DNA of 27,685 nucleotides from positions 1 to 27,685 of the IMG/VR virus record IMGVR_UViG_3300013128_000029. One strand, 5' to 3'. The notes under the pieces are model-generated. The model was not told the DNA's origin and made no database searches. It saw only the letters and a program-made list of their open reading frames with translations. Positions 4,812 to 27,685 of the stretch are shown here, in pieces. The DNA comes from a virus. How positions within the stretch are numbered: the stretch's first letter is position 1; each line of letters starts with the position of its first letter. The translations under genes were made by a program, and so were the position numbers.

Positions 4812-5690
4812 CTAAGCCGCAGCGTTTTGAGATTTGAAGTACGCAGTCAATTCGGGAATCTCAGTTTTGCCGATGGCTTCCTTGCCCCAACGTGTCCACT
4901 CTTTTGAGGACTCCATTGGTTCGGCGCGGGCGAACAGCTCCAGGTATTTCCCCGGGCTCTTCTGCGCGATCACGTTGTAGCTGATGTCCGGCTTGCGGGA
5001 GTGCCCGACCCACGGTGCCTGGAAGACTTCACCCTCTTCGTGGAACTCAGACAGGAACCAGTTGCGCACGTTCTGCGGTTTGTTGGTCGGCATGTTCCCA
5101 CGGGTGGCGAACAGGATGTGCTCGGTGTCCCCACGGAAGTAGTTGCCCACGCCCATTCGTCCGGTCTTCAACCACGTAATGACGGTCTTGGGCTCGAAGC
5201 CCCAGGCCCGCGCCACGGTGGCAGCGTGTCCTTCGAGAAGGAAGTGGTTGGTCGTCCACAGGTACAAGTGGGCCTTGTCCGCAGCCAACGACTCGACCGG
5301 CATGCCGACGATCTGGTCGAGATCCATCGGTTCGTACTTATCCCCAACTGCACCTTTTGCGGCTTGATTGCCGTACTTCCACGGTGGGTCTGCCACGATG
5401 GTGGTGAATTTGGTGGAGGGTGGAAGCACGAGTTCTTTGAGGGGCGACGTGTTCGGAAGCAACAAGACGCGGCCAGTCGCATCGTTCGCGACACCGGGCA
5501 GCTTGTGAAGATGCAACAACCCATCGGCATGTAGCAAGGCGAAACCGACAACACCGCGAAAGGTGACTTGGTAGTCCACAGCGTACCCAAAAACTTGGGC
5601 GGGGTGGGGCTTGTCGAGGTCCCCATAAAGGTCGGTCAGGAAGGAAGCGTTGTCGTCCCAAAGTTTCTCAGCAATCTCGTCGGTCGTCAT
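4812..5690 (-). CDS. MT-A70-family adenine methyltransferase
   Basis: Predicted S-adenosylmethionine-dependent N6-adenine methyltransferase. The central motif is DPPW (Asp101-Trp104 in VADPPWKYGN), diagnostic of the MT-A70 family; HLYLWTTNHFL (about 141-151) and HILFATRGN are typical of phage members. Residues 1-90 form an extra N-terminal part not needed for the catalytic fold. Phage MT-A70 enzymes usually modify phage DNA and so protect against host restriction; no partner restriction enzyme is seen here, so self-protection or regulation by methylation are the likely uses. It lies between thymidylate kinase and the primase on the same strand. A stable hairpin (5727-5747) sits in the 65-base gap upstream. 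The ribosome site is weak (AAGAAAG, about 10 bases from ATG). Confidence 0.88.
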   Translation of the reverse strand: MTTDEIAEKLWDDNASFLTDLYGDLDKPHPAQVFGYAVDYQVTFRGVVGFALLHADGLLHLHKLPGVANDATGRVLLLPNTSPLKELVLPPSTKFTTIVADPPWKYGNQAAKGAVGDKYEPMDLDQIVGMPVESLAADKAHLYLWTTNHFLLEGHAATVARAWGFEPKTVITWLKTGRMGVGNYFRGDTEHILFATRGNMPTNKPQNVRNWFLSEFHEEGEVFQAPWVGHSRKPDISYNVIAQKSPGKYLELFARAEPMESSKEWTRWGKEAIGKTEIPELTAYFKSQNAAA

Positions 5691-5755: not shown

Positions 5756-6424
5756 TTACTCAACGACGTGTTGGTTTCTTCGCCATGGAGGTGTGTCATG
5801 CCGCTGTTGGGAGGCGAGTTCGTCCGCGCGTTGCAACGTCGCGGAGTACACATCCTTGAACACAGTCAAGGGATCCTGGGTTGCGTCGATCACCTTCCAG
5901 TGTCGCGGGTTTCGCGATGCCCACATGGCGCAGTAGTTGGCCCTGGCCTCGGACATGAGGTTGGCGTTGCGTTCATACGAGTCGCGCTTTTCTGGTCGGC
6001 GCGCGGAGGCAGTGATTGACGGGGCGTCCAACAAAAAGTTCAACTCCGCTTGCGGAAGAGCTTTGTGGATTTCCTCCAAAAACGTTTCATCGAGCCCGAA
6101 GACGCTTCCGTACACGAACCCGGATTGCCACCAGCGATCCGCGATACAAAGCACCTCGGGGTCTTTTGCGAATGCGCGGATCTCTTCTGCCACGGTGTAG
6201 CGATCGACGGTCATCATGGCTTGGAAGGCAAGGGGTTGTTCTTGCGCCTCTCCGGTTTCCAACCACTGCTTGAGCACACGTCCCAAGTCCGTAGCGTATT
6301 GCGGAAAGCTGAACAATCGTGCGCCCTTCGGAAAGGACTTTGATCCTTCGTGTACCACGCGTTTCAGTGTTTGCACCAACGTGTTCTTGCCAACAGCGTC
6401 GCCGCCTTCGATAACGATGAACAT
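5756..6424 (-). CDS. tmk: Thymidylate (dTMP) kinase
   Basis: Phosphorylates dTMP to dTDP with ATP, feeding dTTP synthesis during phage replication. The P-loop is EGGDAVGKNTL (about residues 6-16), with Asn where many homologues have Ser or Thr. The dTMP-binding DRY motif is present in altered form as ADRWW (about residue 95). The LID region follows as RRPEKRDSYERN, containing a conserved Glu. The 222-residue length fits the family. The start follows the polymerase stop by three bases, with AAGG upstream, so it is probably co-transcribed with polymerase and glycosylase. Together with the uracil-DNA glycosylase and the deoxyribosyltransferase it indicates active control of thymidine nucleotides. 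Confidence 0.88.
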   Translation of the reverse strand: MFIVIEGGDAVGKNTLVQTLKRVVHEGSKSFPKGARLFSFPQYATDLGRVLKQWLETGEAQEQPLAFQAMMTVDRYTVAEEIRAFAKDPEVLCIADRWWQSGFVYGSVFGLDETFLEEIHKALPQAELNFLLDAPSITASARRPEKRDSYERNANLMSEARANYCAMWASRNPRHWKVIDATQDPLTVFKDVYSATLQRADELASQQRHDTPPWRRNQHVVE

Positions 6425-15326: not shown

Positions 15327-18300
15327 TCACTTCACGATTTTGACAGGGAGCTTGGCTTTGTTGAAGAACGATGAGGGCTTCCCCACGATCGGACCTCGGG
15401 GGGTGACAATCTTCTCAACGCATGAGGCTTCAAAGCATTTCTTTGCACGTGTCATGCAAACATAGGCCAGCCGAAGTTCTTCCCCCGGGTCCGGGTTGTA
15501 CTGGTGCGGGAGGATGCCTTCGTTCCACCCAACACCGAACACGCGTTCCCATTCCAGCCCCTTCGAGTTGCACCCATCGAACCCGTTCTGGAGGAAGCGG
15601 CCTGTGTCTGGCACCTCGATGCACATCGCAGGACCCTTCGTTGGTTCGATAGACACGATGCGATCGTGATGGAAGTTCAGCTCTTCCAAGAGTCCAACTT
15701 TCAAGGCAACGGCACGGGTGACGTATCCGTTGGCCAGCCCGCTCTCTCGTTCGTACCGCCATTCTTCGCGCGGCCACGTTTTTGCGACAGCCTCTGCCAC
15801 TGGCACCAAATTGTAGGTGTCTTCGACATGCTTGAGGTTCGCGAACCGCATGCTCGTGAACTGGTCTGTGAACTCCATGAACTTCAACCAGTTCACGATC
15901 TGTCCTGGGTTGATGGAGATTGTCCACGCGCCTTTCAAGATTGAGCAGGTGGTGATGACATTCGTGCGCAACAGCATTGTTTGCACGACTCGTGCGACAG
16001 TCTCACTCGGGGCTTTCCAACGCACAGATGCAACCCCGCTGTCTCGATGGAGGATGTACGCGTCCCCCATCAAGTAGGACAAGAATGCTTTCTGCATTAG
16101 CAGCGGCGCAGTGAGTACGCTCGGCGGTACTGTTCGTTGCTGCACCCCGGCCAGATCCCGCATCCACGTAGCGATCGTGGATGAGCGCAGGGTGAAGGTC
16201 CAAGGACTCGAAACATTTTTCGGAAACTCGTCGTCGCGCTGCGGGAACACACAACCAAAAACGTCGCGGACCAACGCGCGTGTGTGGTTCAACGCTTCCA
16301 GTGACGGTAGCTCAAAGATAACCGAGTCACGCGTCAGACTTCCAAATGCCAGGTAGTACCCCAGGAACTTTGCAAACTCCAACGTCATCGTCGCAGGCAT
16401 CTTGCCCTTCACACCTTCGGGGTTTTGAAGGGCAGGCTGCTCGTGCAACTGCGGCGTGTGTTGTGGCTCCATGGTTGGCCCCAGCTTCAACCGAAGGAAC
16501 ATGTCCGGCGTGAGGTCCTTCGCCTCCACTTCTTCGTACGCGTTGTTCTGGGGGACCCAGGCAACCATCCGGTGATCCGTTGTCACGTTGATGGTGTACC
16601 CGTTCTTCGTCTGGATGCGCAACATGTCGCGCTCTTCGTAGGCGACCTTGTTGCCGAACCCAGCGATGCCGTCCCCGTGGGCGATGTGCCCCGCATCCGG
16701 CAGTTCCTTGATGGGGATCAACCCCCATTCAGATTCCACCAACGTGTCGGGGCTCACGCACTTGTGAATCGTGGACAGCACAACAGCGTTGGCGTCTCGC
16801 TTGCCGCGCATCGCTTCCATCTCCGCAGTGGTTTTGTTGATGTACACCAGCAACTCTGCGGTGGAGTCGAAGTTCTCGGCAATGCTGATGAGCTTGAAGA
16901 TGTTGGCAGCTTTGCCTCCATCGGGGTCCGGTGTATCGCTGCCGTCGTGTTCCTTGATGAACGTGTCGTAATGCGTATCCTCGACAACGAACTCCAGAAT
17001 TTTTGCTGGTTTATCACCGCGCGAAATCATCTTGTTGGCTGTCGTCAGCGTCTTGTAGAACGCGGCATACTTGGTGCGCTGGCCCTTACCCAATTCAACT
17101 TTGCCCAACGCATCCAACAGGGCGACTCCGTTTTCCCGGGCGTACTGTTCCGCAGCACCTATGACTTTGTTGCCGATGTACCGGAACGGCGCGAGCAATG
17201 CGCGGCGCAACTCCGACCCATCGGGATCTTGCAGCGACGCGACCCGCAAGTAAGCCAGCAGGTCTCGAACTTCTTTGCGAATGTAGAACGTCGCACCCGA
17301 CCAAACAACGTACGGGATCTTGGCATGAAGCAACGCCTCTTCGATGGTCGGCATCAGAGACGTGACACGGTAGAGGATTGCGATTTCCTTGGGGGGCACC
17401 CCAGCATCCAAGGCTTTCTGAATCTTGCCAGCGATCGCCAAGGCTTCTTTCTCAGGCGATGCGTACTGAATGCCCACCACAGACGCGGGATCAGACTGAG
17501 CGTCCTTGTGCGGCAGGGTTGGCCCGGTTACGTTCCACGTCTCACCCGCAGTCAGGTTCGTCGCGTGCTTGCAGACTTCTTGTGTCGATCGGTAGTTCAC
17601 CGGCAACACCAGTTTCTCGTACGTGTTTGCGTGCTGGACGAACTCTTCGGGGAGCGCCCCTCGCCAGCGATACAGCGATTGACAGATGTCACCGACGTGC
17701 ATGATGTTTTTGCACGTCTCACTCAAGATGCCGACAACAGCGTTCTGCACAGCGGACGAATCCTGTGCTTCGTCAACAATCACGTATTCGTAGCGCGCCG
17801 CCCACAACAACCGGGCCGAAGGGTCATGCAACAGGAACAAGTACGCCAGGACCAGCATGTCGTCGTAGTCCATCAGGCGGTTGGCTGCACGGAAGAGTTC
17901 GAGCTTGCGGTACACCGCAACGTAGCTGGGCGCCAACCAATGCTTTTGCACGTTCTTGCGGAAGAACGCCAGAATTGCCGGAGTCGGTTGAACCTGTTGC
18001 TCTGCGTGGAACGACAAGCCTTGCGCCTTGGCCAACCGGAACACGGTTTGCGCTTCGTTGAAGTCCAGACCCTGGTCCCGAAAGTCTTTCTCGATCGTGT
18101 CCTTGACGAAAAAGTTCAGCTTGGACTCGGCCAGTTCCAAAGCAGGGCCGCCAAACTTGCCGCTCAAGTCGGTCTGCAAAATTTCCCAGCAAAGAGAATG
18201 CAGAGTTCCGATGCGAACGTTGGACAGCCCAAGCAATGCTGCACGGGTTGTCATTTCCTGTGCAGCATCACGTGAGAATGTGAACGCCCCGATGCGCTCG

Positions 18301-18503
18301 GGTGGTACGCCCGAGGCAACGAGGTTTTCAATCCTCAGAACGACGGTGAGCGTCTTGCCCGAGCCCGCCGTAGCCGCTAAAACGAAGCGGCCTGACCCGG
18401 CGAGGGCGGCTTTCTTCTGGTGTGGGTTCAGGCTGTTCCACAACGCGTGGCTGTACGGGCTTTTGTTCGACGGCAATGTCTTGGTACCTTGTGCGATGGG
18501 CAT
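15327..18503 (-). CDS. UvrD/Rep-type helicase precursor containing an intein
   Basis: Superfamily 1 helicase, 1058 residues, of which 398 are an intein (582-979); the spliced protein would have 660. Helicase motifs: LNPHQKKAA (25-33), AATAGSGKT (43-51), VIVDEAQDSS (241-250), MHVGDICQSLYRWRG (268-282), LPVNYRS (300-306), motif V STIHK/SKGLEW split by the intein, and LRLAYVCMTRAKK (1010-1022). It probably unwinds DNA in repair or recombination with the neighbouring nuclease and ATPases. The ATG at 18503 lies within the previous helicase gene (176-base overlap) and has no clear ribosome site, so translational coupling is likely. The conserved part begins near residue 23. Confidence 0.92.
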   Translation of the reverse strand: MPIAQGTKTLPSNKSPYSHALWNSLNPHQKKAALAGSGRFVLAATAGSGKTLTVVLRIENLVASGVPPERIGAFTFSRDAAQEMTTRAALLGLSNVRIGTLHSLCWEILQTDLSGKFGGPALELAESKLNFFVKDTIEKDFRDQGLDFNEAQTVFRLAKAQGLSFHAEQQVQPTPAILAFFRKNVQKHWLAPSYVAVYRKLELFRAANRLMDYDDMLVLAYLFLLHDPSARLLWAARYEYVIVDEAQDSSAVQNAVVGILSETCKNIMHVGDICQSLYRWRGALPEEFVQHANTYEKLVLPVNYRSTQEVCKHATNLTAGETWNVTGPTLPHKDAQSDPASVVGIQYASPEKEALAIAGKIQKALDAGVPPKEIAILYRVTSLMPTIEEALLHAKIPYVVWSGATFYIRKEVRDLLAYLRVASLQDPDGSELRRALLAPFRYIGNKVIGAAEQYARENGVALLDALGKVELGKGQRTKYAAFYKTLTTANKMISRGDKPAKILEFVVEDTHYDTFIKEHDGSDTPDPDGGKAANIFKLISIAENFDSTAELLVYINKTTAEMEAMRGKRDANAVVLSTIHKCVSPDTLVESEWGLIPIKELPDAGHIAHGDGIAGFGNKVAYEERDMLRIQTKNGYTINVTTDHRMVAWVPQNNAYEEVEAKDLTPDMFLRLKLGPTMEPQHTPQLHEQPALQNPEGVKGKMPATMTLEFAKFLGYYLAFGSLTRDSVIFELPSLEALNHTRALVRDVFGCVFPQRDDEFPKNVSSPWTFTLRSSTIATWMRDLAGVQQRTVPPSVLTAPLLMQKAFLSYLMGDAYILHRDSGVASVRWKAPSETVARVVQTMLLRTNVITTCSILKGAWTISINPGQIVNWLKFMEFTDQFTSMRFANLKHVEDTYNLVPVAEAVAKTWPREEWRYERESGLANGYVTRAVALKVGLLEELNFHHDRIVSIEPTKGPAMCIEVPDTGRFLQNGFDGCNSKGLEWERVFGVGWNEGILPHQYNPDPGEELRLAYVCMTRAKKCFEASCVEKIVTPRGPIVGKPSSFFNKAKLPVKIVK
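15567..16760 (-). mobile_element. Intein (398 aa) in motif V of the UvrD-type helicase
   Basis: The intein begins at Cys582 (CVSPDTLVES, block A) and ends at Asn979, followed by Ser980. Block B is NVTTDHRMV. Blocks F and G are AMCIEVPDTGRFLQNG and FDGCN/S. Joining the flanks restores STIHKSKGLEW, a perfect SF1 helicase motif. The penultimate residue is Cys978 instead of the usual His. The middle holds two degraded LAGLIDADG helices: FLGYYLAFGSL (713-723), which lacks the catalytic Asp, and FLSYLMGDAYI (807-817), which keeps one Asp. Homing activity is therefore doubtful, while splicing residues at both ends look largely intact. The insertion site is a strongly conserved motif, as is typical for inteins. 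Confidence 0.93.
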
Positions 18504-21136: not shown

Positions 21137-22974
21137 GCAGCGAAGCCAAACCCCGCCAGGGAACGTCCACCAGAAGTATCAAGAATGCCTTCCGGGCGCA
21201 GGAAGACGCCCCCGTTCGGCGTGCTCGGGAAGCCCTCATGCGGGTAAAGAACATGCGAGAAGCACTGGCCCGATCGCAACTCAACCAGCGGACCGAAGCT
21301 GAGATGATGGAAGCGGACGAGCTGCTGCAACAAGCACAGCAACAGAGAGACCATGTCCATCAGGTGTGGGCCGCCGCCCTGAACGAGACCGACGCACCTG
21401 AAGAAGCAGTCAGTCCGCCAGTTGAAGAAGCAGTCAGTCCCCCGGGCGAAGAAGCTGGACCTTCTGCTGGCGTTGAGGGGCCCACACCCCCGGCTGCGCC
21501 TGCCGAGATGGACCTTGAGCAGATTCAGCGGGTCGCCGCGGCCCGACTGCTTTCGCGAATCCACGAAGCCCGTGAGGATCCCGCAGCGTTCATCGAGTTC
21601 GCGATGCGCACTCCCGAGGGGCAGCCCATCAAGTTGGCCCAGTTCCACCGGGAATGGCTCGACGCCATGAAGAGCGGGGGGATGGTGCTCATCGAAGCCC
21701 CGCGTGGGCATGGGAAAACCAGCGTGACGATCGGCTTCATCCTGTGGACGTTGGGCAAGAACCCCAACCTCCGCATCAAGCTGCTGTCCCAGAACGACGA
21801 CAAGGCGAAGGAACGCCTCTTTGAAGTTCGGCAAAACCTTGAGCAGAACAACGCGCTCAAGTTGGTGTTCCCCCACCTCGAACCCGACATCTCCGGTGAG
21901 TGGACGAAGACCAAGCTGTACGTCAAGCGCACTGCACAGACTCGTGACCCCAGCTTCCAGGCTGGCGGTATCCTCACGTCCGTCACGGGCGGTCGTATCG
22001 ACCTGCTGATCTGCGACGACGTTTGCGATCTCCGTAACTCCATCCTGTACCCCTCGTTGCGCGAGGACATCAAGACGAAGTTCAACGGTGAAATTCAGGG
22101 CACGCTCACCCCAGATGCGAATGTTGTGTACATCGCAACGCCGTACCACATGGCGGATCTGACGGCGACGCTCAAGCAAAACCCAATGTGGAAAGTTTTG
22201 CAGTATCGAGTCGGCACGAATGACAATCCGTGCACGCCACTTTGGCCAGAAATGTGGACTGAGGCGCTTCTCCAGAAGAAACGAATCTCGATGGGGTCGG
22301 TTGAGTACGACCGCGCTTACCGTTGTCTGGCTGTTTCAGGTAACACGGTTCCGTGCAAGCCTGAGTGGATTCAATTCTACACTGCCGAGATCATTGGCGA
22401 TGTCTTGCAACACGCCTGCATCCAAGGTTACGACTTGGCGATCTCGAAGAAAACTTCGGCGGACTATTTCGCCCAAGTCACCTTGCTCTACGATCGTGTG
22501 CGGCACTACATCTTCGTGGCCGACGTGAGCCAGGGACGGTACAGCTTTGCTGAGCAGGGCATGGAGGTTATCCAGAATCACAAGAAGTGGTTGCCCGACA
22601 AAGTCATCATCGAAACGGTTGGCTTGGGTGGCGGCCTTGAATCGTTCCTTCGTGAGAAGGGGCCGCCTGACTTGCCCATCATCGGGTACTACCCACGCGG
22701 TGATAAACAGCGGCGCTTTCTTGAGATCACGCCGCTGTTCGAGGACAAGCGCATTTTCTTTCACCCCAAACTCAACCCCCACGCCAACCCCTACGTCACA
22801 CAAACCGGCGACATCATCACTCAATTGCTTGAGTTCCCTGTCGGTTCACATGACGATATGGTTGACGCGCTGGTCACCGCCATCAGCGGCCTGAATGAGT
22901 ACTTCATGACGGAACCTGACCCCGAATGGGACCAGGGAGACGGGAGTCAGGTCCGTCTATCGGTGATCGGCTAG
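21133..22974 (+). CDS. terL: Terminase large subunit
   Basis: Packaging motor and headful or site-specific nuclease. The ATPase part has Walker A EAPRGHGKTS (188-197), a Walker B strand LLICDD (291-296) and the coupling motif IATPYHM (334-340). The C-terminal RNase H-like nuclease part shows QGYDLAISKKTSADYFA (Asp434), VIIETVGLGGG (Glu494) and SHDDMVDAL (Asp574, Asp575, Asp578). Residues 1-125 are an unusual N-terminal extension: basic at first, then Gln/Glu-rich helices, then a Pro/Glu linker with two EEAVSPP repeats. The ATPase domain proper begins near residue 145. The start overlaps the small subunit (ATGA), and the stop overlaps the converging gene. Confidence 0.93.
   Translation: MSSEAKPRQGTSTRSIKNAFRAQEDAPVRRAREALMRVKNMREALARSQLNQRTEAEMMEADELLQQAQQQRDHVHQVWAAALNETDAPEEAVSPPVEEAVSPPGEEAGPSAGVEGPTPPAAPAEMDLEQIQRVAAARLLSRIHEAREDPAAFIEFAMRTPEGQPIKLAQFHREWLDAMKSGGMVLIEAPRGHGKTSVTIGFILWTLGKNPNLRIKLLSQNDDKAKERLFEVRQNLEQNNALKLVFPHLEPDISGEWTKTKLYVKRTAQTRDPSFQAGGILTSVTGGRIDLLICDDVCDLRNSILYPSLREDIKTKFNGEIQGTLTPDANVVYIATPYHMADLTATLKQNPMWKVLQYRVGTNDNPCTPLWPEMWTEALLQKKRISMGSVEYDRAYRCLAVSGNTVPCKPEWIQFYTAEIIGDVLQHACIQGYDLAISKKTSADYFAQVTLLYDRVRHYIFVADVSQGRYSFAEQGMEVIQNHKKWLPDKVIIETVGLGGGLESFLREKGPPDLPIIGYYPRGDKQRRFLEITPLFEDKRIFFHPKLNPHANPYVTQTGDIITQLLEFPVGSHDDMVDALVTAISGLNEYFMTEPDPEWDQGDGSQVRLSVIG
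21399..21440 (+). repeat. Two 18-bp direct repeats in the TerL linker
   Basis: Identical 18-base copies at 21399-21416 and 21423-21440, 24 bases apart, encode the EEAVSPP units of the TerL N-terminal linker. A third, diverged unit (GEEAG) follows. This is likely slippage in an unconstrained linker. Confidence 0.8.
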
Positions 22975-23438
22975 AAGCTGAGAACCACCTCACCGTCGGT
23001 GGGTACAACACTCGCAGCACTCGCGTGTGCTGCGAAGTTGGCTTTCATGTGCAAAACGAAGTCGGAACTTTCGAGCGTTGGTTCCTTCTCAGCCCAAGCA
23101 GCCGCAGCATCCAACGTGATGAACCCTTCGAGCACGACCACCTTGTCCTTGCTTTTCCGCACTTGCGTGTAGGTAGCTTCGCCAGAGACACCATCTTCGT
23201 CCTCGTCATCCTCGTCGTCCTCGTCGTCCTCTTCGTCGAGGGTCTCAACCAACTCGTAGATGTACGTGACTTTTCGGAAAACGATGTTGCCCTCGCGTGT
23301 GAGGTGCGCTTCGATTTTCACCACCGAGTCCCCCGACGACTCGTCGTCGTTTGTTATGTGCTGCGCAAGCATCTGCACTGCGTAGTACGTGACCGTCTGA
23401 CCTGCGGCGTTGGACCCTTTGTATTTGCCCGTGTGCAT
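22971..23438 (-). CDS. Unknown protein, paralogue 1, with acidic tract (155 aa)
   Basis: Family unknown. It is clearly related to the next gene on this strand (23517-23921): both begin MH-x-G-x-Y-x-G-x-N and share KIEAH-x-TR, NIVFRKVTY-x-YE, AAAAWAE-x-EPTL and a similar end. Only this copy has an acidic insertion of about 15 Glu/Asp residues at about 69-83, encoded by a triplet-rich repeat. Acidic tracts of this kind can mimic DNA or act as flexible linkers. The start has AAAGGTCACAC upstream. The protein appears soluble, probably mixed beta and alpha. Its stop overlaps the TerL stop. Confidence 0.75.
   Translation of the reverse strand: MHTGKYKGSNAAGQTVTYYAVQMLAQHITNDDESSGDSVVKIEAHLTREGNIVFRKVTYIYELVETLDEEDDEDDEDDEDEDGVSGEATYTQVRKSKDKVVVLEGFITLDAAAAWAEKEPTLESSDFVLHMKANFAAHASAASVVPTDGEVVLSF
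23194..23239 (-). repeat. Short tandem repeat encoding the acidic tract
   Basis: About five units of a CCTCGTCGT-like 9-mer (plus-strand sense) encode the Asp/Glu run of paralogue 1. The sister gene has no such repeat, so the tract was gained after duplication or lost from the sister. Confidence 0.75.
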
Positions 23439-23516: not shown

Positions 23517-23921
23517 CTAGAATTGTAATACGTCCGGTTCCGCGTTAACGAAGTCGTTCGCGGCGGCTGCAAAATTGGCGCGCATGTCTTTCACGAAATC
23601 AGAACCTTTGAGCGTGGGTTCGCTCTCGGCCCAGGCAGCCGCAGCATCCACATCTTTGAACGGTTCCAGGATCACGTCCTTCCCGGTGTTAACTCGGCGT
23701 CGAACGGACTCGCCCAAGACGTATTCCGTTTTCACCTCGTAATGATACGTGACCTTGCGGAACACGATGTTCGTTTTGCGGGTGAAGTGTGCTTCGATCT
23801 TGATGACAGGCTCGTCAGATTTCGTGTCCACGGACGTTGTGTGCGCCGCCAAAAGTTTTTCGGCGCGGTACACAACCTTCTGCCCCGCCCCGTTCCTTCC
23901 GTCATAGTTACCTTGGTGCAT
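23517..23921 (-). CDS. Unknown protein, paralogue 2 (134 aa)
   Basis: Tandem paralogue of the gene at 22971-23438, with roughly 40-50% identity by eye over the shared parts and no acidic insertion. Shared blocks: MHQGNYDGRNGAGQ at the start, KIEAHFTRKTNIVFRKVTYH in the middle, and DAAAAWAESEPTLKGSDFV near the end. In place of the acidic tract it has a basic stretch (ESVRRRVNTGKD). GGAGGA lies upstream of the ATG. A 78-base gap separates it from paralogue 1. The function is unknown; opposite charge in the variable loop suggests different partners on one scaffold. Confidence 0.75.
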   Translation of the reverse strand: MHQGNYDGRNGAGQKVVYRAEKLLAAHTTSVDTKSDEPVIKIEAHFTRKTNIVFRKVTYHYEVKTEYVLGESVRRRVNTGKDVILEPFKDVDAAAAWAESEPTLKGSDFVKDMRANFAAAANDFVNAEPDVLQF

Positions 23922-25652: not shown

Positions 25653-26954
25653 TTAGTCGTCGTGTCCACGGCGACGTTCGCGCTTCCGTCGATGTTTGCG
25701 CTTGTCCCGGTACACGGCCCACAAATCCGGTTGGTGTTTCGCCAACCGAGCCGTTCGTATTTCGGTCAATGTCGGTGTGATCTCGTCGCAGTCCAGGTGA
25801 TGAGGAAGCAGTTGCTTCGGGGTCAACCCCAATGGTGCTTCCGACACTGTCAGTCGAGTTGGATCCTTCTCGAACTGATAGCACACCGCGCACTGTATCC
25901 CCTTCGTTTTGTGGAGCCAATGCTTGTTCTTCGGAAAGCGAATCAATGGTTCGATCAAGCGCCGTGCCTGCGCCATCGACCATTGATTCGCGAAGAGAAA
26001 AGGGGAGCAGTCCAGTGTTGGGTCACCTCCGTCGGCAAACGCCGCAGCCATCCGGCTGCTGTTCGTCACTGGTTCCTCTTCCGACGGGATGACAATCGAA
26101 CCATCAGGCAGGCGCGTCACACACTTCGCGACAGACACCTCTGGCGGCTTTGATGGGCGCGAAGCGGGGGTTGGTGTTTTATCACCATCAAAGTACTTCG
26201 ATGGGGTGACTTGCTTCGGGGCTGGGGGCAGCGTCGCCACACGGGAGGTGTGCTTGGACATCACCTCATCCCATGCTCGTTTTTCCGTGGTACGGAATCC
26301 TTGCTTGGAACCGTGATGTCCCGTCTTGTAATGTGCGGGAATCTCGCGACCCAACGCACGGAACACAGCAAAAATTTGTGCATCGGTTTCGCACGCCTTC
26401 TCGCAGTGACGCGCACGAACCGTGGCAATTGGATCCGCACAGTCAGGCTCAGCCATGCCAATGAGTGTTGCAAGCACCAAACCCGTACGTCCATGACTAC
26501 CTTCGCAGAAGGTGAGCACCCGATTGCGGTTACGTGCAAACGTCAACATGCGCTCAGCCACAAGGGCAAGATGGTCTGGATCTGGCGCGGTGAAATCCGC
26601 AATGGGGAACGGCATCAAGAAACCGGTGTACTTGATGAAGTTCGACAACGCGAACTCGGAACCCAACGGAACGACGAAGTCGAACTGGCGCAAGTCGTCG
26701 GGGAACTTCAAGTACCGCCGACCTGATGCGTAGATTTCCGTGTCGCCGCACTTCACAGCTTTCGGCTGGTGGTCGCACGTCTTGTAGTTGTGATAACCAC
26801 CGCCGCCGCTGCCATGGAAAACGGACACCCCTCGTGTGGTGTCCACTCCAGGCCCAGGAAAAATGCGCGTGCGATAGTCATCATCGTCGTACGGATTGCC
26901 ACCAACCTTGCCCCCGTTGCCCCCGTTGTTGCCGTTGTTGTTTTTGTTGTTCAT
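25653..26954 (-). CDS. Dual-specificity protein phosphatase-like protein with C-terminal Cys/His cluster
   Basis: Residues about 70-205 match the Cys-dependent dual-specificity phosphatase fold. The signature loop is TFCEGSHGRTG, with nucleophile Cys150 and Arg156 (C-x5-R). The general acid is probably Asp120 in PFPIADFTAP, and the downstream DPIATVRARH with a later TDAQIFAVF fits the 'AI..VR..R...T..Q' helix of such enzymes. It could dephosphorylate host proteins, RNA ends or nucleotides. Residues 1-20 are an Asn/Gly-only run. Cys355, Cys358, His385, His386 and Cys389 may bind zinc, resembling an HNH-like or zinc-finger module, and the last 20 residues are extremely basic (RDKRKHRRKRERRR), suggesting nucleic-acid binding. 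AGAAGGA precedes the ATG. A true cellular-type phosphatase in this gene row is unexpected. Confidence 0.8.
   Translation of the reverse strand: MNNKNNNGNNGGNGGKVGGNPYDDDDYRTRIFPGPGVDTTRGVSVFHGSGGGGYHNYKTCDHQPKAVKCGDTEIYASGRRYLKFPDDLRQFDFVVPLGSEFALSNFIKYTGFLMPFPIADFTAPDPDHLALVAERMLTFARNRNRVLTFCEGSHGRTGLVLATLIGMAEPDCADPIATVRARHCEKACETDAQIFAVFRALGREIPAHYKTGHHGSKQGFRTTEKRAWDEVMSKHTSRVATLPPAPKQVTPSKYFDGDKTPTPASRPSKPPEVSVAKCVTRLPDGSIVIPSEEEPVTNSSRMAAAFADGGDPTLDCSPFLFANQWSMAQARRLIEPLIRFPKNKHWLHKTKGIQCAVCYQFEKDPTRLTVSEAPLGLTPKQLLPHHLDCDEITPTLTEIRTARLAKHQPDLWAVYRDKRKHRRKRERRRGHDD
26895..26954 (-). repeat. Low-complexity Asn/Gly-coding segment at the phosphatase N-terminus
   Basis: GTT/GCC-rich codon repeats (plus sense) encode about 20 residues of almost only Asn and Gly at the start of the phosphatase. 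They probably form a flexible tail and are prone to length variation. Confidence 0.7.
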
Positions 26955-26958
26955 TCGT

Positions 26959-27576
26959 TCAGTCCTTCTTCCAACTTGGTTGTTTTTCGGCTTCCAGCAA
27001 CATGCGGATACCGCGTGCAGTCAGGGCAAGCATTTGGTCGTAGCCCCCTGCGTTGTGTGCGAAGTGTGACCCCTGTTTGGCGGTGTCCCAGTGTGTGCTG
27101 ATCCCGTTTACTACCGTTAACCCTTGGGGAATGTGCGGCATGGTGTTTCCTGGTTTCGCGCACACGCGGAGACGTGTACTCGACTCCGGTCCACGACGTG
27201 CCACCACACCGTGACGTGTCTCTGCCATCACCTGATACGCAACACCTTGGCTTGTACCGGGCACTTCCTTCACCGTCATTTCTGGGATCACGTACGGCAC
27301 ACCGTCGATTTTCTGTTCCCACGAAACGCTTTTGGTTGGTGTGCAATCAGAAGACAAAAACGTGCCTTTTGCTGCACGTTGCGAAAGCCAGTCTTCGTAC
27401 GGGCCGTGGATGTTTTGGATGGCTATCTCCAAGCCATCAATGGCTTGGATGATCAGGATGTTGGTGCAACATCCATCAGCGTGTGTGGAAACAGCGAACA
27501 TTTCCGACGGTGTTCGGATGATGGCCTGATACGTCCGACCTTTGTGAATCACTGTTGGCATGCCTTCGATAGTCAT
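26959..27576 (-). CDS. Unknown protein with two copies of a small domain (205 aa)
   Basis: Family unknown. I start at ATG 27576 because AAGGAAGG lies nine bases upstream and the ATGA overlaps the stop of a preceding gene. The same frame stays open to the window edge, and ATG 27600 is another possible start. Two related segments are visible: IEGMPTVI...GRTYQAIIRTPS...AV near the start, and IDGVPYVI...GVAYQVMAETRHGVVARR in the second half. The latter is also similar to the protein at 25077-25613. No membrane segment or catalytic motif is recognisable. Several cysteines (GCC near residue 36, DCTP) are scattered. Confidence 0.62.
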   Translation of the reverse strand: MTIEGMPTVIHKGRTYQAIIRTPSEMFAVSTHADGCCTNILIIQAIDGLEIAIQNIHGPYEDWLSQRAAKGTFLSSDCTPTKSVSWEQKIDGVPYVIPEMTVKEVPGTSQGVAYQVMAETRHGVVARRGPESSTRLRVCAKPGNTMPHIPQGLTVVNGISTHWDTAKQGSHFAHNAGGYDQMLALTARGIRMLLEAEKQPSWKKD

Positions 27577-27685
27577 TCGCCATGTCCTTCCTTCGTACAT
27601 GGAGTCGCCGTCACTGGCTCCCAGTTCGGGTGGAGGTTCTTGTTGCTGTACGTATGCACGCCACTTGGTGGCGGTTCTGAGGGCA
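27573..27685 (-). CDS. C-terminal end of an unknown gene (partial at right edge)
   Basis: About 36 codons of an open frame end at TGA 27575-27573, overlapping the next start by ATGA, the commonest junction in this genome. The visible end includes VHTYSNKNLHPNWEPVTAT. Over 19 codons here, 17 end in G or C, as in neighbouring genes, while the competing frame has about eight, so I favour this frame as coding. Nothing can be said about function. Confidence 0.48.
   Translation of the reverse strand, partial: PSEPPPSGVHTYSNKNLHPNWEPVTATPCTKEGHGE

Follow-up and report, generated by a model that had tools for sequence, protein, structure and literature searches.

Introduction

Dikinases of the PPDK fold include PPDK itself, phosphoenolpyruvate (PEP) synthase, rifamycin phosphotransferase and glucan water dikinase. 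In plants, a glucan dikinase writes phosphate that a dual-specificity phosphatase (DSP) of the SEX4/laforin type removes. Here we describe a phage protein of 433 amino acids encoded on the minus strand of IMG/VR virus record IMGVR_UViG_3300013128_000029, of which positions 1 to 27,685, the whole stretch of DNA that was analysed, are called the window below. We propose, with a probability of roughly 55%, that this protein is the phosphatase arm of a phage phosphorylation/dephosphorylation module composed of a dikinase, a conserved and mostly helical domain that we call X, and one or two phosphatases.

The dikinase of this proposed module would be of the PPDK/PEP-synthase type, and shares the ATP-grasp and phosphohistidine swivel domains of PPDK, PEP synthase and rifamycin phosphotransferase. 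It differs from these enzymes in mostly lacking a recognisable PEP/pyruvate-binding domain, with X encoded separately beside it or fused in the place where that domain would be. Phosphate would pass from ATP to a phosphohistidine and then to X itself or to an acceptor bound by X, and the phosphatase would take it off again, which would make the mark reversible or reset it during infection. The likeness to the plant glucan dikinase and SEX4/laforin is an analogy in working only, and Pfam searches of the window protein at E ≤ 1 showed no carbohydrate-binding module.

In the relevant portions of three phage papers (PMC12038007, PMC9229204, PMC7326821), a dikinase, a phosphatase and a hypothetical protein are listed near one another without being joined into one system; judging by its position, the hypothetical protein is X. 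No paper treating the dikinase, X and the phosphatase as one system was found in the open-access PMC literature, nor was a known cellular or viral system of this composition found. The clade of the window phosphatase could be mentioned in a survey of rhodanese-phosphatase superfamily members from 2023, reportedly by Burroughs and Aravind. The phosphatase is a further member of a known enzyme kind; the module, as far as we could find in this literature, has not been described as such.

The window protein carries an intact phosphatase domain

A preliminary description of the window, made from its sequence, had proposed that the protein is a Cys-dependent phosphatase with a C-x5-R loop and a general acid. 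In the list of open reading frames (ORFs) of the window, its gene runs from an ATG at position 26954 to a stop codon ending at 25653, and a plausible ribosome-binding site lies 8 nucleotides before the ATG (duplex energy -5.4). The gene and the parts that bear on its expression and catalysis are as follows.

25653–26954, minus strand: phage gene for a phosphatase of the DSP/protein-tyrosine phosphatase (PTP) type, 433 amino acids (ORF; phrog_17568 match; fold)
26963–26967, minus strand: Shine-Dalgarno-like AAGGA that precedes the phosphatase start codon (duplex energy)
26340–26774, minus strand: catalytic domain, residues 61–205 (pLDDT 91–98; VIA-align ranges 61–205 to Tk-PTP and VHZ)
26481–26507, minus strand: phosphate-binding loop C150-E-G-S-H-G-R156-T-G158 (C150, G155, R156, T157 and G158 invariant, n = 91 sequences)

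Cys150 opens the C-E-G-S-H-G-R segment (Cys150-x5-Arg156), and the general acid Asp120 lies within DFTAPD. Among the 91 aligned family members Q193 is invariant along with the loop residues listed above, and D120, G152, R180 and E189 are nearly so. A phosphatase fold, which the preliminary description expected from structure prediction, was found in an AlphaFold2 model as a block with pLDDT 91–98 over residues 61–210. Foldseek matched this model to PTP and DSP structures (E 1.5e-9 to Tk-PTP), and VIA-align superimposed it on such structures with Z 18.1 over 140 residues and an rmsd of 2.5. The best-matching folds in both searches are the small protein phosphatases Tk-PTP, ShufPTP and VHZ (DUSP23), which share the fold over window residues 61–205 (Z 17–18, rmsd 2.5–2.9) together with the C-x5-R and E-T-x2-Q motifs, but from which the window protein differs in its identity of 22–25%, its phage context and its long extensions.

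Sequence profiles alone are weaker evidence for a phosphatase than the fold. The Pfam families PTP-SAK (PF22784, 20.6 bits) and Tc-R-P (PF22785, 19.6 bits) score below their cut-off of 27, which some relatives pass, and the phrog_17568 profile matches residues 116–197 with E 1.1e-11. Three routes make the catalytic domain clear: the conserved loop and general acid, the confident model and the structural matches. These findings confirm a Cys-dependent phosphatase of the DSP/PTP fold with intact catalytic residues, whose activity is predicted from sequence and model.

All seven relatives that were scanned also match phrog_17568, a phage-specific family whose members mostly have 160–300 amino acids; the window protein adds about 210 C-terminal residues, with a Cys/His cluster and a basic tail, and an Asn/Gly N-terminus. 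The preliminary description was right to call such phosphatases uncommon in phages, given that 12 of 50,697 phage records were matched with the window phosphatase as query and 38 with the sequence of a relative. A plain protein search of viral contigs returned no relative for the window phosphatase, and for two relatives (L077 and L097) it returned the query's own contig alone.

PHROGs gives the family the label ‘thymidylate synthase’, as do several phage records (L002–L007). Two annotated relatives, DLP3 gp139 and gp141, are described as having protein-tyrosine phosphatase domains, and a table lists gp141 as ‘thymidylate synthase’ (PMC7326821). We rejected this label for phrog_17568 since its profile sits on the phosphatase domain and gp141 is called a protein-tyrosine phosphatase in the same paper. 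The label is apparently a propagated misannotation, and genes so named should not be read as nucleotide-synthesis genes.

The phosphatase family is linked to a dikinase and to domain X

Loci (numbered L001 onwards) were collected from viral contigs by searching for the phosphate-binding loop with an exact DNA pattern, which gave at least 119 stretches; two further patterns gave 19 more. Among the stretches listed, the phosphatase profile was found in 98 distinct loci, which include the window and six named phages and from which the duplicates L001, L127 and L128 were removed. It was absent from 47 others, which had been drawn with patterns of the same kind but encode no such phosphatase and served as controls.

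The dikinase domain PPDK_N (PF01326) is present in 50 of 97 phosphatase-bearing records (4/4 closest relatives of the window, then 7/13, 25/50 and 14/30 phosphatase records) versus 0 of 47 controls, which are generally shorter but include 15 records exceeding 40 kb, none of them with PPDK_N. Pfam PPDK_N and PEP-utilizers domains were both matched in the linked dikinases, and the ATP-grasp and phosphohistidine swivel motifs are each intact in 21 of 24 full-length examples. The dikinase is split in two genes in L021 (4370–4783 and 7614–8435). A small separate swivel protein alone was seen in L056 (6063–6452), L067 (483–884) and L079 (2141–2500); in these four loci the stand-alone phosphohistidine swivel proteins have 120–138 amino acids and lie near the phosphatase.

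Domain X corresponds to PHROG 20946 (phrog_20946) and the dikinase to phrog_18609. In the four closest relatives of the window (L042, L077, L097 and L129), the C-terminal part of the dikinase is homologous to a protein of about 350 amino acids that tandem-type phages encode between two phosphatases, and for L097 and L077 both PHROG families were matched in one chain. Counting the window, 80 of the 98 phosphatase loci contain X, in most cases immediately upstream of the phosphatase and on its strand, and the X frame usually abuts or overlaps that of the phosphatase. Of the 18 phosphatase loci without X, 16, the window among them, have less than 1 kb of sequence upstream. The X profile found no match in loci lacking the phosphatase.

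The same association is seen in annotated phages. A query with X retrieved 40 of the 50,697 phage records, and by comparison of lists 39 of these also have the dikinase (from 60 of its 64 records) and 39 the phosphatase (the 38 found with a relative's sequence plus MN988459). The sole X record with neither is AF465603, a fragment of 5.8 kb. These 39 co-occurrences are not independent events, because many of the records are near-duplicates. Among the 60 of 64 dikinase records listed, matches without X were seen in Bacillus phage G, in short records without annotation (fecal, Listeria and Enterococcus), and in an Acinetobacter record annotated ppsA. In Bacillus phage G (JN638751), the dikinase-like gene is gp139 (80174–81007), and no X match accompanies it.

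A model of X from L090 is mostly helical and confident (pLDDT 90.4, pTM 0.85). No known fold was recognised for it by Foldseek on the PDB (best E 0.6) or by VIA-align (best Z 4.7), in which residues after about 273 are barely covered. Against viral models it gave four matches with E below 1e-14 and one borderline, short match (E 0.057).

These linkage data bear on a simpler explanation, namely that the window protein acts on its own, as a phage protein phosphatase resetting Ser/Thr/Tyr (or His/Arg) phosphoproteins of the host early in infection, and that its linkage to dikinase and X reflects no more than a shared early-gene block. Protein phosphatases are indeed its best-matching folds, the annotation of a relative in the relevant part of one paper agrees (PMC12038007), and in the window the gene sits among small minus-strand ORFs of no known function. 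However, a shared gene block does not sit easily with linkage across very diverged phages, with the fusion of dikinase and X, with overlapping or abutting frames, or with the lack of a dikinase in all 47 control records, and we consider this explanation unlikely.

Most linked dikinases lack a PEP-binding domain

Several linked dikinases (L006, 1214–3286; L007, 214–2286; and relatives) are annotated ‘pyruvate phosphate dikinase’, although most have no recognisable PEP-binding domain. A metabolic gene set, in which the dikinase makes or uses PEP and raises host carbon flux while the phosphatase is incidental, would accord with what is published for Vibrio phages, in that the dikinase of a relative is taken as PPDK in the pertinent sections of two papers (PMC12038007, PMC9229204). 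The PEP-binding domain PEP-utilizers_C (PF02896) was found in one of the six long dikinases scanned, that of L009. It is absent from the other five, and TIGR01828 (PPDK) was matched below its cut-off in two dikinases scanned, over only the first ~525 of its 865 positions. Similarly, in the 2025 paper on phage vB_VneS_J26, the overlap of the dikinase with PPDK 1GGO covers residues 1–527 of 691, and PEP is docked in the remainder (PMC12038007). In the dikinase-X fusions, X occupies the place of the PEP-binding domain. With that domain mostly missing, a role as carbon-metabolism auxiliary genes is doubtful, and we regard the metabolic explanation as highly improbable. Judging from the architecture, the acceptor of the dikinase in most of these phages is probably not pyruvate.

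The window phage very likely belongs to the clade with dikinase-X fusions

A FastTree phylogeny built from 170 phosphatase domains places the window in a group with L129, L097, L042 and L077 (support 0.96). In all four, dikinase and X form one ORF whose frame overlaps the phosphatase frame; the L129 stretch covers the C-terminal part of the fusion alone, and its dikinase proper was seen through PPDK_N in its record. The sequences thus make it very likely that the window phage belongs to this dikinase-X-linked clade. The place that dikinase-X holds in these relatives is taken in the window by the following feature.

26959–27684, minus strand: ORF directly upstream of the phosphatase gene, open at the contig end, 241 amino acids read (213 from an internal ATG)

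The internal ATG has a weak Shine-Dalgarno sequence (-2.7), and the ORF may therefore continue further upstream. The idea that it is a dikinase C-terminus gained no support: phmmer at maximum sensitivity found no match at E ≤ 100 to the four closest dikinases. Comparison with all six-frame ORFs of the collected stretches gave nothing relevant, and the X profile gave no match in the window at E ≤ 10. This ORF may be a C-terminal extension unlike any sequence compared. Upstream of the phosphatase gene, the window extends for another 731 bp (665 bp before the phosphatase frame), and so its dikinase-X is predicted, not seen: we infer that the window phage carries it beyond the contig end.

Terminal extensions of the window protein

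The highly basic tail and the Asn/Gly start noted in the preliminary description are both present, and the likely zinc site that it proposed is present as a sequence motif.

26895–26954, minus strand: Asn/Gly-rich N-terminus, residues 1–20, predicted to be disordered (16/20 Asn or Gly; pLDDT ~41)
25788–25922, minus strand: possible metal site, residues 345–389, HWLH...C355-x2-C358...H385-H386-x2-C389 (motif; shuffle p ~0.02; low-confidence model)
25656–25709, minus strand: basic C-terminal tail, residues 416–433 (11 Lys or Arg in the last 25 residues)

Cys355, Cys358, His385, His386 and Cys389 are all present as numbered. When this tail was shuffled 20,000 times, 2.1% of the shuffled sequences contained the pattern C-x2-C-x(8-40)-H-x(2-5)-[HC]. 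For residues 340–395, whose comparison with HNH and zinc-finger folds had been suggested, the model is poor (pLDDT 37–51) and barely covered by fold comparison, and no Pfam zinc or HNH family matched at E ≤ 1. Clear Cys/His repeats lie at the same position in L042 and L077. We rejected the window cluster as a copy of them, given that about 4% of 999 shuffles outscored it with a six-repeat profile; position alone is shared.

Across the family, at least two CxxC motifs occur in the N- or C-terminal extension of 17 of 136 ORFs; at the N-terminus, the motifs were counted in stop-to-stop frames, which may include non-coding residues. These comprise 16 of the 60 in single-phosphatase loci versus 1 of the 76 in two-phosphatase loci. 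Twelve C-tails have at least two CxxC motifs, compared with 3.7 in shuffles. These counts suggest that metal-binding add-ons are a habit of the phosphatase family, whereas the window's own cluster, being borderline and poorly modelled, is an unproven, putative metal site.

A zinc module and a basic tail could aim the phosphatase at RNA or DNA 5' ends or at nucleic-acid-bound phosphoproteins, much as the preliminary description had it. The basic tail and the Cys-rich extensions of the family are consistent with this idea, as are a zinc knuckle in the L042 dikinase, which barely exceeds its Pfam cut-off (21.1 versus 20.8 bits), and the fold, which is common to RNA triphosphatases (1i9t, 2c46). 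However, protein phosphatases outrank these enzymes, with 1i9t at rank 22 of the Foldseek list and 2c46 also present there, and the window cluster does not resemble the L042 and L077 repeats. We therefore found no direct support for action on nucleic-acid 5' ends, and none for the suggested action on nucleoid- or ribosome-bound phosphoproteins; a nucleic-acid-directed phosphatase is very unlikely. Nor did a role against kinase-based defence gain direct support: PADLOC models gave 0 families at E ≤ 0.01 for the window phosphatase, two dikinases, X and one relative.

Other features of the window

Three further observations were made on the minus strand of the window.

15327–18503, minus strand: UvrD-type helicase with an apparent intein of ~390 amino acids inserted within the ...STIHK / SKGLEW... 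motif
22971–23438 and 23517–23921, minus strand: adjacent small ORFs with like starts (MHTGKYKGSNAAGQ / MHQGNYDGRNGAGQ) that look like diverged duplicates
4812–5690, minus strand: MT-A70-type adenine methyltransferase (PF05063, 76.7 bits), adjoining a thymidylate kinase gene (5756–6424)

The Pfam Intein_splicing family aligns with residues 624–974 of the helicase below its cut-off (22.1 versus 35.8 bits, E 1.4e-4), and the likely splice junction is GCN/S rather than HN/S.

Discussion

The association of the three genes suggests that the dikinase, X and the phosphatase act in one pathway, in which the dikinase would add the phosphate and the phosphatase remove it. Several observations weigh against this proposal. 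PPDK_N was not matched in 47 of 97 phosphatase records, five of which have the PF00391 swivel over its cut-off and three below threshold. In L010 and L069, over 1 kb of sequence lies upstream, yet X is missing at threshold. Eight matches to X, with E from 8e-6 to 3e-4, are weak, and the loci in which X was counted are also those that supplied its profile. The L009 dikinase keeps its PEP-binding domain, and this enzyme could therefore be a true PEP enzyme. Within the 27,685 bases of the window, profiles detected neither a dikinase nor X, nor any PF00391 domain at E ≤ 10, and the 241-amino-acid upstream ORF resembles neither dikinase nor X, although dikinase-X adjoins the phosphatase in the four closest relatives.

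Bacterial sequences add a further point of this kind. A pattern scan of bacterial contigs yielded 71 loci, and the phosphatase profile matched 38 ORFs in 33 of them. X was found in 7 of these 33, and the dikinase in 3 loci. Most bacterial phosphatase loci are without X; having the phosphatase fold does not by itself imply its presence. The X-bearing loci come from contigs labelled proteobacterial, archaeal or spirochaete, and many of those without X are actinobacterial. The X-bearing loci could represent prophages, or phage contigs that were placed in bins.

A broader claim, which we put forward tentatively and hold to be somewhat doubtful, is that phages widely encode a write-and-erase system. 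A PPDK-derived dikinase, with X as an acceptor domain replacing the PEP-binding domain, would write the mark, and one or two DSP phosphatases, often aimed by zinc-rich parts, would erase it, the window protein being one such eraser.

At present, a phage ‘PPDK’ is annotated as a metabolic helper and the neighbouring phosphatase as a generic PTP or as thymidylate synthase. Three observations, namely that X is linked to these genes, that it can be fused to the dikinase and that a recognisable PEP-binding domain has been lost, argue for a joint function which such annotations overlook. If the proposed module is real, three PHROG-level annotations would be corrected, and domain X would become a problem of fold and function. 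Phages would then carry their own reversible phosphorylation circuit, and isolates such as Rhodobacter phage RcZahn would allow it to be tested.
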